Source: Nitrogeniibacter mangrovi (GTDB taxonomy: Bacteria > Pseudomonadota > Gammaproteobacteria > Burkholderiales > Rhodocyclaceae). From it: 64,000 bases of DNA. The notes beneath the pieces are model-generated. The model was not told the DNA's origin. It searched no databases and was given only the letters and a program-made list of their open reading frames with translations. Position numbers and translations under genes: made by a program. Positions 2,644-48,170 of this stretch are shown here, in pieces. The stretch lies in the NCBI RefSeq assembly GCF_010983895.1, contig NZ_CP048836.1, forward strand, positions 2,790,001 through 2,854,000. The letters run 5' to 3'. Positions within the stretch are counted from its first letter, which is position 1. Each line of letters begins with the position of its first letter.

Positions 2644-3087
2644 ATGAGTACGACAGTTCAGCAGATTCTTGATCACAAAGGTTCGGGCACGATTTCGGTC
2701 ACGCCCGAAGCGACGGTGATGGATGCCCTCGAACTGATGGCCAAGCATGACGTGGGCGGTGTGCTGGTGCTCAAGGACGGGCGTTTGGTGGGGATCTTCA
2801 CGGAGCGCGACTATGCACGCAAGGTGGCCATCAAGGGCCTGTCCTCTCGTGACGCCACCATCGGTGAGTTGATGACCACGAACGTCTCGACGATCACGCC
2901 CGATTGCTCCACCGACGAAGTCATGAACATCATGACGCAACACCGCTTCCGCCACCTGCCGGTGCTCAAGGACGACCGCCTGTGCGGCATCGTCACCATC
3001 GGCGACGTGGTCAAGGCCGTCATCGCCGAACACGAGGCGACCATCCATCAGCTGTCGAGCTACATCGCCGGCGACATCACCGCCTGA
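2644..3087 (+). CDS. CBS-domain pair protein
   Basis: A 147-residue protein made almost entirely of two CBS domains (about residues 8-65 and 75-135), a Bateman module that usually binds adenine nucleotides and senses energy charge. Typical strand-helix signatures are GGVLVLKDGRLVGIFTERD and FRHLPVLKDDRLCGIVT. There is no membrane segment or attached catalytic domain, so it probably acts by binding a partner that cannot be named. A strong ribosome site (GGAGGGAGAGG) precedes the ATG. A perfect inverted repeat follows the gene. Confidence 0.88.
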   Translation: MSTTVQQILDHKGSGTISVTPEATVMDALELMAKHDVGGVLVLKDGRLVGIFTERDYARKVAIKGLSSRDATIGELMTTNVSTITPDCSTDEVMNIMTQHRFRHLPVLKDDRLCGIVTIGDVVKAVIAEHEATIHQLSSYIAGDITA

Positions 3088-3107
3088 GGCCGGCCGGCGG
3101 ACGACCC

Positions 3108-3132
3108 GCAACCCGCCCCTGTGGCGGGTTGC
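3108..3132 (+). terminator. inverted repeat, probable terminator between convergent genes
   Basis: GCAACCCGCC / CCTGT loop / GGCGGGTTGC forms a perfect 10-bp stem, followed by the short T-containing sequence TTGCGTTT. It sits between the CBS gene and the convergent histidine kinase gene and could end transcription from either side. The T-run is weak. Confidence 0.6.
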
Positions 3133-3138
3133 TTGCGT

Positions 3139-4509
3139 TTACGACGCCGGTTGCCCGCCTTCGGGCAGGCACACCGTCACCGCGAGGCCATGGCCATCGT
3201 CGCGCGCCAGCCCCGGTCCGAACGCCAGCGTGCCCCCATGCAGCTGGGCCACCCGTTCGATGATCGACAAGCCCAGACCGACGCCCTCGACGTCCTGCAC
3301 CTCCCCACGCGAGAAGCGCCCGCGCAGCCGTTCCGACTCGTCCGCGGACAGCCCCGGACCGCTGTCGGCCACCCGCAGGCAGATCTGCTGCCCCTCGCGT
3401 CCCACATGGACCGTCACCCGGCCCCCGTGCGGCGTATAGCGCAACGCGTTGTCCACCAGGTTGCGCGCCAACACCTCGAGCCAGACCGCATTGCCCGACA
3501 CCCAGGCCGGCACGGCGTCCAGGTCGAGCGTCTGCTGGCGTGCATCGGCTTGCGGCACCATCCGCGCGCACACCGTTTCGGCGACTGCCGCCAGATCGAC
3601 CGCGCCGAAGCCCTGCTCGGCGGCCCCCGGCTCCAGCCGCGCCAGGGTCAGCAACTGCTCGACCAGGTGGCCCATGCGATCGACGGCCGCAAGCACCTGC
3701 CCGAGTGCACGCTCGCGCGCCTGGGGGTCGGCCGTGCGGGCCGCCACCTGCGCCTGCACCTTGAGCGCCGCCAGCGGGGTGCGCAACTCGTGCGCCGCAT
3801 CGGAGGTGAAGCGGCGCTCATTCTCGAGCGCCGCCTCGACGCGGCCGGTCAGCCGGTCGATGGCCTCGATCAGGGGCAGGATCTCGCGTGGCGTATGCTG
3901 GAGCCCCGCCACCGGCGCCAGGGTCTCCGGCGACATGGCCGCCACGGCCTGTGCAGTCCGGTCCAGCGGCCGCATCGCCCGGCCGACCACCCACCACACG
4001 GCCAGCGCCATCAGCGGCAGGCCGATGCCCATGGGCATGAGCAGGTGCAGCGCCATCTCGGTGGCCACGTTGTCGCGCGCCGCATGATCCTGCCCCACCA
4101 CCACGAACAGATCGCCGTCGTGGTCCGTCACCCCCAGGAATCGCCACATCGCGTGATCCACGCGCCGTTCCACGAAGCCGGCATGGGTGATCATGGGGTC
4201 GGTGGGCGCACTGGGCGAACGCAGCACCAGGCGCTCGCCACCGTTCTCCCGAATCCACACCTGGTACCGCAACGGCAGTTCGTAGCGCATGGCATGCGCT
4301 TCCATGTCGTGCGCCACCTCTTCCGACTCGCCGACCGACACCAGCGCAAGCAGCGTTTCGGCCACCTGCACCAGTTGCGCATCGAACATCTCGTCGGCCT
4401 CGTGGTGTGCCGTGCGAAACGCCAGCCAGGCCGCCCCGGCCCAGAGGATGCCGACCACCACGACCAGGATGAGGACGAGGCGCTGACGCAGCGAGTAGAT
4501 CCGGCGCAT
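3139..4509 (-). CDS. sensor histidine kinase, QseC-like
   Basis: Membrane sensor kinase of 456 residues. It has a transmembrane segment at about 11-30, a periplasmic sensor region at about 31-156, and a second transmembrane segment at about 157-176. A HAMP-like linker follows, then a HisKA domain with H240 in SDAAHELRTPLAAL. The ATPase domain has an N-box (NLVDN, 350-354), a G1 box (ADSGPG, 381-386) and a G2 box (GVGLGLS). All catalytic motifs look intact. Its ATG overlaps the regulator stop codon by one base (TGATG), so it is translationally coupled. It is the last gene of the cytochrome operon, which suggests it senses a redox or gas signal linked to those cytochromes; the ligand is unknown. 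Confidence 0.93.
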   Translation of the reverse strand: MRRIYSLRQRLVLILVVVVGILWAGAAWLAFRTAHHEADEMFDAQLVQVAETLLALVSVGESEEVAHDMEAHAMRYELPLRYQVWIRENGGERLVLRSPSAPTDPMITHAGFVERRVDHAMWRFLGVTDHDGDLFVVVGQDHAARDNVATEMALHLLMPMGIGLPLMALAVWWVVGRAMRPLDRTAQAVAAMSPETLAPVAGLQHTPREILPLIEAIDRLTGRVEAALENERRFTSDAAHELRTPLAALKVQAQVAARTADPQARERALGQVLAAVDRMGHLVEQLLTLARLEPGAAEQGFGAVDLAAVAETVCARMVPQADARQQTLDLDAVPAWVSGNAVWLEVLARNLVDNALRYTPHGGRVTVHVGREGQQICLRVADSGPGLSADESERLRGRFSRGEVQDVEGVGLGLSIIERVAQLHGGTLAFGPGLARDDGHGLAVTVCLPEGGQPAS

Positions 4510-5174
4510 CAGGTGTCGCCCTCACCGAGGGTGTAGCCCACACCACGCACCGTGCGGATGAAGCCGCTGCCGAGCTTCTTGCGCAGATGGTGGATGTGCA
4601 CCTCGAGCACGTTGCTCTCGACCTCGTCGCCCCAGCTGTACAGCTGGTCCTCGATCTGGCGCCGGGTCACCACCCGGCCGCGCTGGCGCATCAGCAGTTC
4701 GAGCACGTCGAACTCGCGCCCGGTCAGGGTCACCGGCACGCCGCCGCGGGTCACGCTGCGCGCGGCCGGATCCAGCGCCACCTCGCCCGCCTGCAGGATG
4801 TCCCGCGCCTGGCCACCGGCGCGGCGCAGCAACGCCCGCAACCGTGCCGTCAGCTCATCCAGGTCGAAGGGCTTGACCAGATAATCGTCGGCCCCCAGGT
4901 TGAGCGCCTCGACCTTGTCACGCACCTGATCGCGCGCGGTGAGCACGAGCACCGGGGTCACGTCTGCCGCGGCACGGCGGCGCGCCAGCACCTCGCGGCC
5001 GTCGAGCCGGGGCAGGCCGAGGTCGAGCACGACGGCGGCAAACCCGCCCCCGGCCAGGGCCGCCTCCGCCGCCGGGCCATCGCGCACCCAGTCGACCACG
5101 AAACCCGCCTCGCGCAGACCAGCGCACAACCCGTCACCGAGCAGAGGGTCGTCCTCGACGATCAGCAGCCGCAT
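4509..5174 (-). CDS. OmpR-family response regulator, QseB/PmrA-like
   Basis: A 221-residue regulator with an N-terminal receiver (acid pair at D8/D9, phosphoacceptor D51, switch T79, K101 in DDYLVKPFD) and a C-terminal winged helix ending in IRTVRGVGYTLGEG. The partner kinase gene overlaps its stop. The diheme cytochrome gene ends 6 bp before its start, so all five genes are probably one transcript. A direct repeat resembling the binding site of this subfamily lies upstream of the first operon gene at 6791-6807, consistent with autoregulation. Confidence 0.95.
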   Translation of the reverse strand: MRLLIVEDDPLLGDGLCAGLREAGFVVDWVRDGPAAEAALAGGGFAAVVLDLGLPRLDGREVLARRRAAADVTPVLVLTARDQVRDKVEALNLGADDYLVKPFDLDELTARLRALLRRAGGQARDILQAGEVALDPAARSVTRGGVPVTLTGREFDVLELLMRQRGRVVTRRQIEDQLYSWGDEVESNVLEVHIHHLRKKLGSGFIRTVRGVGYTLGEGDT

Positions 5175-5180
5175 GGTGCC

Positions 5181-5741
5181 TCAGCGCGGGATCCGCACCC
5201 GATGCTCGTCGAAGATGCCTTCAGCGGCCCCCTGGTGACAGGCACCGCAGTTGGCGGCGGAGCCCACCGCCGGCCGGGACCACACCTCGGAGCCGACTTC
5301 ATGGTGGGCACGGATGAACCAGCGCGTCTCGGTGATGCGCATGGGCATCTCGAAGCGGCTGGCCGTTGCGCTGGTGCGGGTGCGGGTGCGGTCTTTGTCA
5401 TCGCCGCCATCATAGCGCCAGCGCATGCCCCGCGCATCCGCGGCATGCGCCGCCAGATAGCGCCGGATGTGCGCCGTGGTATCCGCCGGCAGCTCCGCGT
5501 TTTCGCCGAAGTGACTGGACAGTCCATCCATGACGCGCTCCCAGGAGGCCGTTGGCAGCAACTGGGGTGGATACGGCACATGACAGGCGCCGCACTCGGT
5601 CGCCCACACGGCATCCCGTGTGCTCGCCCCGCGCCCGAACCACGACTCCTCGTCCGCCCGCGCCTGCGGCCAGTCGAAGAGTCCGAACGAAAGCACCGCC
5701 ACCGCGCCCACCACGAGCGCACCTTTTGTCGTCATGTTCAT
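5181..5741 (-). CDS. diheme cytochrome c (DHC family)
   Basis: A 186-residue exported protein with an N-terminal hydrophobic signal (about residues 7-29, ending near ARAD) and two heme-attachment motifs, CGACH at 50-54 and CGACH at 165-169. The size and spacing fit the DHC family of periplasmic diheme cytochromes that pass electrons to SHP. The ATG at 5741 overlaps the upstream SHP stop codon by 4 bp (ATGA), indicating tight coupling. It probably bridges the membrane cytochrome b and SHP. Confidence 0.88.
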   Translation of the reverse strand: MNMTTKGALVVGAVAVLSFGLFDWPQARADEESWFGRGASTRDAVWATECGACHVPYPPQLLPTASWERVMDGLSSHFGENAELPADTTAHIRRYLAAHAADARGMRWRYDGGDDKDRTRTRTSATASRFEMPMRITETRWFIRAHHEVGSEVWSRPAVGSAANCGACHQGAAEGIFDEHRVRIPR

Positions 5742-6136
5742 TTTCGCGTCTCCAAACTCATCAGCCATGCGATCACGGCTGCCTTTTCCCGGTCGCTGCA
5801 AGCGCGCGCAAGCACGTCCTTGCAGTTGCGTCCGAACCACTTCTCCACCTTGGCCGGATCGGTGAATCGCGCCGGGTTGGCTGCCGGCGCCATGGGCGCG
5901 ATCCGCTTGCCCACGCGGGTCTTGCCATCCTGCGTGGGGTCGTCGGTATGGCACGCGGTGCAGTGACGCTCGCCGGTGCCGCCGGCACGGAAGAGCTGTT
6001 CGCCCTCTGGGATCAGCGTCGCCGCCGACACCCCGGCGCGGGCGGCATACGCATCGCGCAAGCTCGCCGCCTCGTCGGCCTGGGCCGCCAGGCCCAGGCC
6101 CATCAGCCAGCCGCACAACATCCATCGCTTAACCAT
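5738..6136 (-). CDS. SHP-type (DUF1924) monoheme cytochrome c
   Basis: A 132-residue protein with a signal peptide (about 1-21) and one heme site, CTACH at 59-63. It closely resembles sphaeroides heme protein (SHP) in IAPMAP, NPARFTDPAKVEKWFGRNC and the terminal helix. In SHP an Asn rather than Met binds the heme on the distal side in the oxidised state and leaves to let O2 or NO bind. N104 in GRNC is the probable equivalent, with C105 and C113 available for the family disulfide. It overlaps the cytochrome b gene by 8 bp and the DHC gene by 4 bp. Identity rests on remembered family sequence. Confidence 0.88.
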   Translation of the reverse strand: MVKRWMLCGWLMGLGLAAQADEAASLRDAYAARAGVSAATLIPEGEQLFRAGGTGERHCTACHTDDPTQDGKTRVGKRIAPMAPAANPARFTDPAKVEKWFGRNCKDVLARACSDREKAAVIAWLMSLETRK

Positions 6137-6746
6137 GGGAGATCTCCCCGTCCTGATCGAGATACTGGCGACCGGTGACCATGGCCTGCGCCACGCGCTC
6201 GCCACGCCAGTGATGGAACGCCAGCGCCCCCAGATGCAAGCCGATGAACAGCAGGATCAGGGTGAAACCGGCCTCGTGAGGCTCCTTGAACAGATCCTCG
6301 AGCTGACGCATGCCGCCGAACAGGGCGTTGAGCGGGCCGGTCTGGAACTCGGTCGCGGCCAGGCCGAGGCCGGTCGCCACCATCAGCGCGACGATGAGGT
6401 AGAAGCCGATGAAGGCGAGCGAGGCCATGGCGTCGTGACCGCGTCGGGCCCGTGGCCAGCGCAGCGACGCGAGCCCCGCCCACGCGGACGGATGCCACAG
6501 ATCCTTCCAGCGTGCCGAGACGGGGCCGATCAGGCCCCACAGCACCCGCACCGTCAGGCCGGCGGCCAGCGCGTAGCCGCTGACGATGTGCCACTGCCAG
6601 AACACGGTGTCGCCACCGCCGTCCTCGAACAGTTCGGCCAGCTGACTGGTCGCGATGAGGGAAACGATGGACAGGACGATCCACCAGTGAGTGAGCCGGA
6701 GCAAGGGGTCGAAAACCTTTACCGGCGTTGCTTGTGTCATCTTCAT
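6129..6746 (-). CDS. cytochrome b561-type membrane protein
   Basis: A 205-residue integral membrane cytochrome b of the bacterial b561/Ni-hydrogenase type, with about four membrane helices (near 21-37, 52-72, 108-130 and 160-178). Candidate heme-ligating histidines are H20, H53, H157 and H171. It likely carries electrons from the quinol pool to the periplasmic DHC and SHP cytochromes. The ATG at 6746 follows the ideal ribosome site AAGGAGGG; a longer in-frame start 30 bp upstream would cover that site. It is the first gene of the five-gene operon. Confidence 0.9.
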   Translation of the reverse strand: MKMTQATPVKVFDPLLRLTHWWIVLSIVSLIATSQLAELFEDGGGDTVFWQWHIVSGYALAAGLTVRVLWGLIGPVSARWKDLWHPSAWAGLASLRWPRARRGHDAMASLAFIGFYLIVALMVATGLGLAATEFQTGPLNALFGGMRQLEDLFKEPHEAGFTLILLFIGLHLGALAFHHWRGERVAQAMVTGRQYLDQDGEISHG

Positions 6747-6790
6747 GATGCCCTCCTTGAACAGGATGGGCGCCACTTTGAACCGCGAAG

Positions 6791-6807
6791 CTTAGGGAAG
6801 TCTTAAG
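6791..6807. promoter_or_regulatory. QseB/PmrA-type direct repeat upstream of the SHP operon
   Basis: CTTAGG-GAAGT-CTTAAG is two six-base half-sites with an 11-bp repeat period, matching the PmrA/QseB-type pattern YTTAAK-N5-YTTAAK with one clear mismatch. It lies 45-61 bp upstream of the cytochrome b start. The last two operon genes encode an OmpR regulator of this subfamily, so this is a plausible autoregulatory site. It is motif-based only. Confidence 0.5.
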
Positions 6808-6816
6808 ACGGCATGC

Positions 6817-7320
6817 TCATGACGTGCCGAGCGACAGCGCCATGCGCGCGTTGCGCAGGGACACTCCGCGCCGGATCACGGTGTGCCGGGCGATGACGCG
6901 GAAACCGAAGTGCCGGAAGAACGGCTCGGCGGTCAGGCTCACATCGGCGTGCATGGCGACCAGTCCGCGGTCGTTCGCCTGCGCGATCAGCCGCTGCATC
7001 AAGGCCCGCCCCACACCGGTGCCGGCCGCCTCGGGCGCCACGAAGAACATGTCCACCCGGCCGTCCGCCTGCAGGTCGGCGAAACCGACGATGGTCTCGG
7101 ACCGCCGGGCCACCCACGGCGCGTTCGCCCGCACCCGCGCCAGCCAGGCCGCCGGCGGCGCGCCCGCGGGCGCCCAGGCCACCTGCTGCGCCGCCGTGTA
7201 ATGCGCCGAGGTCAGACGGTGCACGGCGGCCTGGAACAGCGCCCACAGCACCGGCAGGTCATCGTCGTGAGCACGGCGCAGGTCCACCGTCGCCATCAGC
7301 CCGGGGCGGCGCGATGTCAT
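6817..7320 (-). CDS. GNAT-family N-acetyltransferase
   Basis: A 167-residue protein with the GNAT fold: the beta4 segment VDMFFVAPEAAGTGVGRALM contains the acetyl-CoA pyrophosphate loop (Q/RxxGxG/A type, here GTGVGRAL near residue 100), and the C-terminal part has the aromatic EPFFRHFGF typical of small-molecule acetyltransferases. The ATG at 7320 overlaps the stop codon of the upstream LysR gene by 4 bp; an alternative ATG lies 24 bp downstream. The substrate cannot be inferred. Confidence 0.85.
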   Translation of the reverse strand: MTSRRPGLMATVDLRRAHDDDLPVLWALFQAAVHRLTSAHYTAAQQVAWAPAGAPPAAWLARVRANAPWVARRSETIVGFADLQADGRVDMFFVAPEAAGTGVGRALMQRLIAQANDRGLVAMHADVSLTAEPFFRHFGFRVIARHTVIRRGVSLRNARMALSLGTS

Positions 7321-9352: not shown

Positions 9353-10036
9353 TCACTCCCCTTCCGGCACTTCCAGCACGTAGCCCATGCCCCGCACGGT
9401 ATGAATCAGGCGCGGCTGGAACGGCTCGTCCACCTTGCTGCGCAGCCGGCGCACCGCCACTTCGATCACGTTGGTATCGCTGTCGAAGTTCATGTCCCAC
9501 ACCTGCGAGGCGATCAAGGAACGGGGCAGCACCTCGCCCTGCCGGCGCAAGAGCAGTTCGAGCAGTGAAAACTCCTTGGCGGTCAGATCGACGCGCTTGC
9601 CCGACCGGGTGACCCGGCGGCGCAGCAGATCCAGTTCCAGGTCGGCGGCCGCCAGGGTGGTCGGCTCGGTGCCGCTGCGGCCACGGCGCAGCAAGGTGCG
9701 CACCCGGGCGAGCAGTTCGGCGAAGGCGAAGGGCTTGACCAGGTAGTCGTCCGCGCCCAGTTCCAGTCCCCGCACCCGGTCCTCCACCTGGTCGCGGGCG
9801 GTCAGGAACAGCACCGGGGTGTCCTTGCCAGCGTGGCGCACGGCTTCGAGCAGGTGCCAGCCGTCGAGCCCCGGCAGCATCACGTCGAACACCATGAGAT
9901 CGTGATCGCCGGTCAGCGCCAGGTGCAGGCCGTCGGTGCCGGTACGCGCCAGTTCGGTGACGAATCCGGCCTCGCTCAGGCCCTGGCGCAGGTAATCCCC
10001 CGTCTTCGGTTCGTCTTCGACAATCAGCACCTTCAT
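9353..10036 (-). CDS. OmpR-family response regulator, CopR/CusR/IrlR-like, no kinase beside it
   Basis: A 227-residue regulator with receiver residues D8, D51 and K101 (DDYLVKPFA) and a C-terminal winged helix with [20 protein letters not shown] and [12 protein letters not shown]. These are hallmarks of the heavy-metal-responsive CopR/CusR/IrlR group. In that group the sensor kinase gene normally follows immediately. Here the next gene, 16 bp away, is the convergent YeiH-type gene, so no kinase is present. A TTACA-N4-TGTAA dyad upstream is a plausible binding site. A cytochrome c and a Met-rich protein gene diverge from it. Confidence 0.92.
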
Positions 10037-10838: not shown

Positions 10839-11522
10839 ATGTCGATGATCACGGCAAAACGCAGCATCGGCGCATGCCTCGTCGCCCTCGCACTCGCGAC
10901 CGGCGCCGGACACGCATTGGCAGACGATACCCGTAGCCCGGCGCAGTACGGCCCCGGGATGATGGGTGGCTACGGTCCCGGGATGATGGGTGGTTCCGGC
11001 CCCGGGACGACGGGCGGCTATGGCCCCGGGATGATGGGCGGCTACGGCCCCGGCATGATGGGCGGCTACGGCCCCGGGATGATGGGTGGCTACGGCCCCG
11101 GGATGATGGGTGGCTACGGCCCCGGGATGATGGGTGGCTACGGCCCCGGAATGATGGGCGGCTACGGCCCGGGAATGATGGGCGGTTATGGCCCCGGGAT
11201 GATGGGTGGCTACGGCCCCGGAATGATGGGCGGTTATGGCCCCGGGATGATGGGCGGCTATTACGGCCCGGCGTTGTCCGCCGACCAGCGCAAGGCCATC
11301 AACGCCATTCAGGACGATGTGCGCAAGCAGCACTGGTCGATGATGGGGGCCATGATGGACGAGCAGGCCAAGTTGCGTGACCTGTACCAGAGCGGCAAAC
11401 CGGACCAGGCCGCGATCGCCGAGGCCTACAAGCACATCGGCGAGATCCAGCGCGCCATGTTCCAGTCGATGATCGAGGCGCGCCAGAAGATCGACGCGGT
11501 GCTGAGCGGGAAGCAGAAATAG
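10839..11522 (+). CDS. Spy-like periplasmic protein with 13 GPGMMGG-type repeats
   Basis: A 227-residue secreted protein. It has a signal peptide (about 1-29, ending HALA), then 13 tandem octapeptides of consensus YGPGMMGG at about residues 37-140 (one unit is SGPGTTGG). A helical C-terminal domain follows at about 142-227 (LSADQRKAINAIQDDVRKQH, then KLRDLYQ and EIQRAMFQSMIEARQKID), similar to Spy/CpxP and other periplasmic metal-resistance proteins. The paired Met residues suggest Cu(I) binding. Neighbouring genes are a CopR-like regulator and a cytochrome c. A good ribosome site (CAGGAGAG) precedes the ATG. The copper role is inferred. Confidence 0.8.
   Translation: MSMITAKRSIGACLVALALATGAGHALADDTRSPAQYGPGMMGGYGPGMMGGSGPGTTGGYGPGMMGGYGPGMMGGYGPGMMGGYGPGMMGGYGPGMMGGYGPGMMGGYGPGMMGGYGPGMMGGYGPGMMGGYGPGMMGGYYGPALSADQRKAINAIQDDVRKQHWSMMGAMMDEQAKLRDLYQSGKPDQAAIAEAYKHIGEIQRAMFQSMIEARQKIDAVLSGKQK
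10947..11258 (+). repeat. 24-bp tandem repeat, 13 units, coding for YGPGMMGG
   Basis: The array is exactly 312 bp, or 13 units of 24 bp, all in frame. Units differ mainly at third codon positions (GGT/GGC, TAC/TAT, GGG/GGA/GGC), so the peptide is conserved more than the DNA. Only unit 3 changes the amino acids, replacing Tyr with Ser and both Met with Thr. Unit numbers probably vary between strains by slippage or recombination. Confidence 0.95.
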
Positions 11523-48100: not shown

Positions 48101-48130
48101 GGCTCCACCCGGGCAGCTGCTCGCCGAGGC

Positions 48131-48165
48131 GCGGCGCGGCGCGGCGCGGCGCGGCGCGGCGCGGC
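48131..48165. repeat. pentanucleotide repeat (GCGGC)7
   Basis: Seven exact tandem GCGGC units, preceded by a near-copy (GAGGC) and followed by GC. It lies between the cytochrome c4 terminator and the stop codon of the DUF455 gene (minus strand). Copy number may change by slippage, and because the unit is five bases a shift would alter the frame if read through, but the current stop precedes it. Confidence 0.95.
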
Positions 48166-48170
48166 GCAAA

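Follow-up and report, generated by a model that had tools for sequence, protein, structure and literature searches.

A QseBC-linked SHP operon in Nitrogeniibacter mangrovi with a candidate PmrA/QseB-type operator

What delivers electrons to the sphaeroides heme protein (SHP), and what switches its gene on? Both questions are raised by one locus of Nitrogeniibacter mangrovi (NZ_CP048836.1, assembly GCF_010983895.1). The stretch analysed, called the window here, comprises 64,000 nucleotides, positions 2,790,001-2,854,000 of the forward strand, and coordinates are those of the window unless another locus is named. From 6746 down to 3139, five minus-strand genes encode a cytochrome b, SHP, a diheme cytochrome c, a response regulator and a histidine kinase. 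We read this cluster as a QseBC-linked SHP operon in which a quinol-fed chain would lead to SHP and which would activate itself through a box ahead of its first gene; we put the probability of this reading at about 0.6. The features, in 5′ to 3′ order, are listed below.

6791-6807, minus strand: candidate PmrA/QseB-type box CTTAAG-ACTTC-CCTAAG (CTTAAGACTTCCCTAAG), proposed from sequence and conservation.
6775-6780, minus strand: -10-like element CAAAGT, 10 bases past the box, suggested by comparison of promoters.
6752-6758, minus strand: Shine-Dalgarno-like AAGGAGG ahead of the cytochrome b start, from sequence.
6129-6746, minus strand: membrane cytochrome b of the cytochrome b561/Ni_hydr_CYTB family, 205 amino acids, PF01292.
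5738-6136, minus strand: SHP, a monoheme c-type cytochrome, 132 amino acids, PF09086 (DUF1924).
5181-5741, minus strand: soluble diheme cytochrome c (DHC), 186 amino acids, PF09626.
4509-5174, minus strand: OmpR-family response regulator, QseB/PmrA-like, 221 amino acids, Response_reg and Trans_reg_C.
3139-4509, minus strand: QseC-like membrane histidine kinase with a 2CSK_N sensor region, 456 amino acids, 2CSK_N, HisKA and HATPase_c.
3108-3132, strand not assigned: terminator-like hairpin immediately after the kinase stop codon, with 1 such hairpin counted against 1.1 expected in shuffled sequences.

The junctions between the five genes are, in the same order, an overlap of 8 bp, an overlap of 4 bp, a gap of 6 bp (DHC to regulator) and an overlap of 1 bp (regulator to kinase), and the genes would form one transcript. 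A preliminary description of this DNA had claimed five overlapping or nearly touching genes; all of them lie where it placed them, overlapping or 6 bases apart. Its protein identities and gene order were correct by Pfam, PDB and profile matches, and all Pfam matches for the five products exceeded the cut-offs. In 2010, Meyer, Kyndt and Cusanovich described SHP operons that contain 3-6 genes and a kinase of one of three types (PMC2909971), among them 12 examples with a kinase related to QseC, 'SK2'. The gene content that marks an SK2-type operon, with cytochrome b, SHP and DHC clustered with a response regulator and a QseC-like kinase, was found in the window. Because such operons are described in that paper, the cluster is of a known kind, a further SK2 operon, and no new category is needed.

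The box carries the evidence for control by the linked regulator. CTTAAG-N5-CCTAAG is located 44 bases ahead of the cytochrome b ATG and matches a pair of YTTAAK hexamers at 11 of 12 positions. The two hexamers stand head to tail, with a 5-bp spacer, upstream of the putative target gene. The sole CTTAAG of the window lies within this box (6807-6791). Its layout is that of verified PmrA boxes, including the Klebsiella pbgP box TCTTAATATTATCCTAAGC, and CTTAAG is the Salmonella PmrA half-site (PMC3973317). Searches of an open-access library, from which subscription papers are mostly absent, listed no paper on an operator of SHP operons.

SHP loci were collected as the best 80 of at least 596 matches to a pattern that required the Asn ligand. 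The order cytochrome b, SHP, DHC, regulator, kinase (type A) was present in 17 of the 80 (9 from Thiobacillus, 2 from Hydrogenophilales, 1 from Sulfuriferula and 5 from bins without a genus label), and the remainder were mostly SHP-first. A regulator gene was counted as linked when a same-strand open reading frame (ORF) scored at least 140 bits to the window regulator within 3.5 kb of SHP; the matches in L031 and L064 are partial. Fourteen loci were set aside: 2 without a stop-ended SHP ORF, 1 with its promoter off the contig, 7 with less than 2.5 kb downstream and 4 with another response regulator nearby, among which L095 has the box. Where a QseB-like gene is linked, the strict box was found in 17/17 loci of type A and in 11/24 of the SHP-first kind; it was also found in 3/25 SHP loci without such a gene and in 6/1423 control windows. 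Regulator-linked operons thus differ from unlinked ones (28/41 vs 3/25, Fisher p 9e-6). Because box and linked QseB-like gene tend to occur together, the operon is likely to drive its own regulator. The window regulator would bind the box at 6791-6807, and would activate rather than repress the operon. The preliminary description had held that the regulator pair belongs with the cytochromes, and a PmrA/QseB-type box before cytochrome b that recurs in regulator-linked SHP operons supports this on grounds other than proximity.

In type-A boxes the first hexamer is constant, and changes occur in the spacer and at the first two positions of the second hexamer. A -10-like hexamer, TACAGT, TAGAGT, TAAAGT or TAAAAT, follows about 10 bases past the box in 14/21 type-A promoters (in 3 of the promoters compared, another box is displayed). 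Weaker hexamers are found in the window and three congeners (CAAAGT, CACGCT, CATGCT and CAGACT). Two PmrA/QseB-type boxes stand ahead of one SHP operon in each of L035, L040 and L045.

Within the genus (10 genomes), an exact box was found ahead of the SHP operon in G000, G004, G007 and G008, the four genomes with a type-A operon. No box scoring at least 11 of 12 was detected in the SHP regions of other type in G001, G002, G003, G005 and G006, and G009 had no exact box in a search for exact boxes only. The congener loci L117 and L118 share the order of the window cluster, while the contig of L114 ends 460 bases past SHP. In these three loci cytochrome b is immediately preceded by another regulator-kinase pair of the same orientation; the corresponding place of the window holds GNAT- and LysR-like genes instead.

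The 132-residue protein was identified as SHP by PF09086 (109.7 bits, cut-off 22.5) and has one class I c-type heme site, C59-T-A-C62-H63 (CxxCH). Its best PDB match is SHP 1dw0 (92 bits), followed by cytochrome c'' 1e8e (63.6 bits). N104, in KWFGRNCKD, aligns with the Asn of KWLGRNCNS in 1dw0, and W100 and the pair C105/C113 also fall on their 1dw0 counterparts, residues singled out in SHP by Meyer et al. (PMC2909971). In 1e8e a His stands opposite N104, and the identity of the protein as a cytochrome c'' was rejected on this ground. A structure model built from 14 sequences (predicted local distance difference test, pLDDT, 84) is nearest to 1dw0 (Foldseek E 6.8e-8, 48% identity, template-modelling score 0.82 by target length). 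N104, W100, C105 and C113 are invariant in an alignment of 14 sequences, partly by construction because the selection pattern required N-C; the alignment with 1dw0 is therefore the independent test of the Asn. By this alignment N104 is the putative distal heme ligand. The preliminary description had called the protein an Asn-ligated SHP, to be checked by structure prediction and alignment and to be given up if Met or His occupied the distal place; the predicted fold came out closest to SHP, Asn aligns with Asn in 1dw0, and by alignment the claim stands.

Some SHP-family proteins outside the window differ from this pattern. In L029 (1246-1806, genome G058) DUF1924 matches in two overlapping profile pieces, and split matches also occur in G052, G064, G106, G139 and G143. 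The L029 protein could be a two-heme SHP variant, because its insert holds a second CxxCH. In L030 (G027) the SHP match contains four in-frame stops and appears to be a decayed copy.

The other two cytochromes would supply electrons to SHP. Cytochrome b scored 97.2 bits to PF01292 (cut-off 30.1), and its only PDB matches were noise from repeat proteins and a weak one to a hydrogenase subunit. When the window protein is compared with those of 11 of the 17 type-A loci (12 sequences in all), its H20, H53, H171 and H178 never change; they are putative ligands, a number fitting two hemes b. DHC scored 124 bits to PF09626 and contains two CxxCH motifs; Cys and His residues are invariant in its 12-sequence comparison, and H77 and H146 are candidate sixth ligands. 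Its PDB matches up to E 1 are only 3u99, 2fw5 and 2fwt, all of them DHC. Electron flow from quinol through cytochrome b and DHC to SHP was proposed by Meyer et al. (2010), where direct reduction of SHP by DHC is also cited (PMC2909971). The cytochrome b of the window is presumably the quinol-oxidising end of such a chain.

The regulator and kinase were compared with QseB and QseC proper. The regulator scored 271.1 bits to the QseB equivalog NF007663, below the curated cut-off of 345, and the kinase 279.5 bits to the QseC equivalog NF007664, below 475. The likeness to QseB/QseC in the preliminary description was thus right, and neither protein reaches the NCBI cut-off for the namesakes themselves. 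Nearest to the regulator in the PDB are the BasR (PmrA) chains 8jo2 and 4s04 (182 bits); nearest to the kinase is the QseC kinase domain, 3jz3. With an AlphaFold model of the kinase sensor (pLDDT 80), PDB matches went no lower than E 3.9e-3 and were at most PAS/Cache-like, too weak for a ligand to be read off.

To place SHP among respiratory genes, 150 genomes of the order with completeness of at least 95% were surveyed. Presence was called at a best E of at most 1e-30 for SHP (35 genomes), at most 1e-99 for NirS (40) and below 1e-80 for NosZ (23), and over the curated cut-off for NirK (18) and for ccoN of the cbb3 oxidase (103). NirS was present in 24/35 SHP genomes and 16/115 others, and NosZ in 14/35 and 9/115. 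When only ccoN-positive genomes were counted, NirS was found in 22/33 with SHP and 15/70 without. With all 42 genomes having SHP over the cut-off, the figures were 25/42 vs 15/108 for NirS and 2/42 vs 16/108 for NirK; by family (f1-f50), NirS occurred in 15/18 SHP families and 7/32 others. N. mangrovi itself has NirS and NosZ. The association fits a role of SHP in NirS-type denitrifiers.

Several observations count against the self-activated, NO-related operon that we favour. On the side of the box, 13/41 regulator-linked operons are without the strict box, a looser box score also matched loci without a linked regulator (e.g. L078 and L097), and the -10-like hexamer of the window itself is poor. 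The box pattern and thresholds were chosen after the loci had been viewed, and both the box and the NirS statistics ignore kinship beyond the count by family. Because the search pattern required Asn and only the best matches were kept, the 80 loci come from close relatives, and Asp or His variants lie beyond their reach. Exact boxes in the 10 genus genomes numbered 19 on both strands, vs 12 for a backward control, and with one mismatch allowed the genome of N. mangrovi gave 10 matches vs 26. The box is thus telling by place, not by number, and since the one-mismatch search fell below its control only exact sites were used. There are also several QseB-like paralogues in the genome (57, 49 and 47% identical to the window regulator), so more than one regulator may act on these boxes. 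On the side of denitrification, 11/35 SHP genomes have no NirS. SHP also follows ccoN, which was counted in 33/35 SHP genomes vs 70/115 others; in the two SHP genomes counted as negative (G046 and G052) it is split over contigs. NirK was present in 0/35 SHP genomes vs 18/115 others, so production of nitric oxide (NO) alone does not predict SHP, and detoxification of NO as the sole reading is weakened. The preliminary description had suggested a respiratory or NO/O2-sensing circuit: NirS and NosZ in the genome and the tracking of NirS by SHP support it indirectly, but NirK shows no such tracking, and an 'NO circuit' is not established.

Three further exact boxes occur in the genome of N. mangrovi. 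One precedes a CCP_MauG diheme peroxidase, one a DegP-like protease located after the closest QseBC paralogue (the regulator that is 57% identical), and one a CusB/HlyD-type protein followed by an AcrB-family pump, a CusBA-like efflux system. In G008 all four sites stand before matching genes, with one additional site lacking a counterpart. The G008 peroxidase, DegP-like and efflux proteins are 96, 73 and 58% identical to those of N. mangrovi, and the peroxidase case is weak because its flank is also largely conserved. The single exact site of G002 precedes a DegP-like gene (66% identical). We suggest only tentatively that a small regulon defined by the QseB/PmrA box has the SHP operon as its self-activating core and also takes in the diheme peroxidase, the DegP-like protease and the CusBA-like pump, jointly a periplasmic redox or nitrosative stress response of NirS-type denitrifiers. 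If this were true, a quinol-fed gas-binding cytochrome would itself be a stress-response enzyme.

The same boxes bear on what SHP acts upon. It may be an oxygenase or scavenger of a substrate other than NO (an organic amine, a signal molecule, a peroxide, or a sulfur or metal species), with the operon belonging to an envelope redox or metal stress response. Genes for a peroxidase, a protease and an efflux pump behind exact boxes agree with this, as do the NirK genomes without SHP. SHP binds amines and has been proposed as an oxygenase for an unknown substrate, and CzcD, and in Allochromatium the BCCP peroxidase, lie beside some SHP operons (PMC2909971). We regard this account as possible, at odds as it is with the SHP-NirS association and with the NO dioxygenase activity cited as reported for SHP, which also binds O2 (PMC2909971). 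Less can be said for mere adjacency, in which the QseBC-like pair would serve envelope, metal or motility targets and the cytochromes would be run by, for example, a regulator of the Fnr or Prr type. Unlinked SHP operons and, in Rb. sphaeroides, control by PrrBA are on record (PMC2909971), 25 of our SHP loci have no linked QseB-like gene, and the genome has the QseB-like paralogues at 57, 49 and 47% identity; but the box is conserved along with the linked regulator gene, only 6 bp separate DHC from the regulator, which overlaps the kinase by 1 bp, and the same gene order recurs in 17/80 loci, so we consider adjacency improbable. That SHP is a terminal electron sink or redox relay, e.g. to a peroxidase, with incidental ligand binding, would suit the box before the diheme peroxidase gene and the presence of SHP in cbb3-type, cytochrome-rich genomes, but seems quite improbable given the Asn ligand kept in the 1dw0 alignment and the published O2 binding of SHP (PMC2909971).

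The self-activated operon would work as follows. Inner-membrane quinol would reduce cytochrome b, from which electrons would pass to periplasmic DHC and on to SHP. Reduction of SHP would release the iron from N104 and open the site to O2 or NO. In a NirS-type denitrifier, SHP would most likely serve to oxygenate NO, or a different small ligand, at the periplasmic face. The QseC-like kinase may read an envelope or redox signal and phosphorylate the QseB/PmrA-like regulator, which would then bind CTTAAG-N5-CCTAAG and activate the five-gene unit, its own gene included, in a positive feedback.

Around the cluster, 70 bp separate cytochrome b from the preceding ORF, which reads as a GNAT acetyltransferase. 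The hairpin at 3108-3132, weak by count and apt in position, separates the kinase from a convergent gene, presumably a CBS-domain gene. No sigma-70-like promoter was detected in 2950-6950; 0.2 would be expected, so the result is uninformative. Elsewhere in the window, a 24-bp repeat that encodes YGPGMMGG occurs thirteen times at 10947-11260 within a Metal_resist/LTXXQ-type protein (10839-11522), near which lie a second OmpR-type regulator (9353-10036) and a small ORF with CxxCH. A perfect array of eight GGCGC units lies at 48128-48167.

The original observation is right and largely known, and the unclear role of SHP that it pointed to is the same open question already in print (PMC2909971). 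What is added is the recurring box, as cis-evidence for the link to the regulator, and the association of SHP with NirS. What induces SHP becomes directly testable with this candidate operator and linked regulator, and with a single genus that naturally contrasts a boxed, QseBC-linked operon with SHP loci without these. The association with NirS and not NirK indicates the growth conditions to try first.

Compared with known systems, the cluster is closest to the SK2 SHP operons, with which it shares the clustering of SHP, DHC, cytochrome b and a regulator/QseC-like kinase pair, the Asn ligand, the Trp and the Cys pair; no operator or promoter is reported for those in the sections of PMC2909971 consulted, whereas the window operon has a recurring box. 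The order cytochrome b, SHP, DHC is also that of the Rhodobacter sphaeroides operon, in which, however, cytochrome b forms a fusion protein with a second DHC, and no regulator is linked (PMC2909971); in the window cytochrome b is unfused and the pair is linked. Methylophilus cytochrome c'' (1gu2, 1e8e) has the SHP fold and a ligand that departs on reduction, but carries His at the distal place where the window SHP has Asn, and is reported without O2 binding and without an apparent DHC (PMC2909971). QseBC/PreAB and PmrAB are like the window pair in regulator and kinase families and in the box layout of verified PmrA sites (PMC3973317), and unlike it in that the window proteins score below the QseB and QseC cut-offs of NCBI. 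Among the Salmonella genes predicted to be activated by PreAB there is also a cytochrome b561, STM1253 (PMC2653508).

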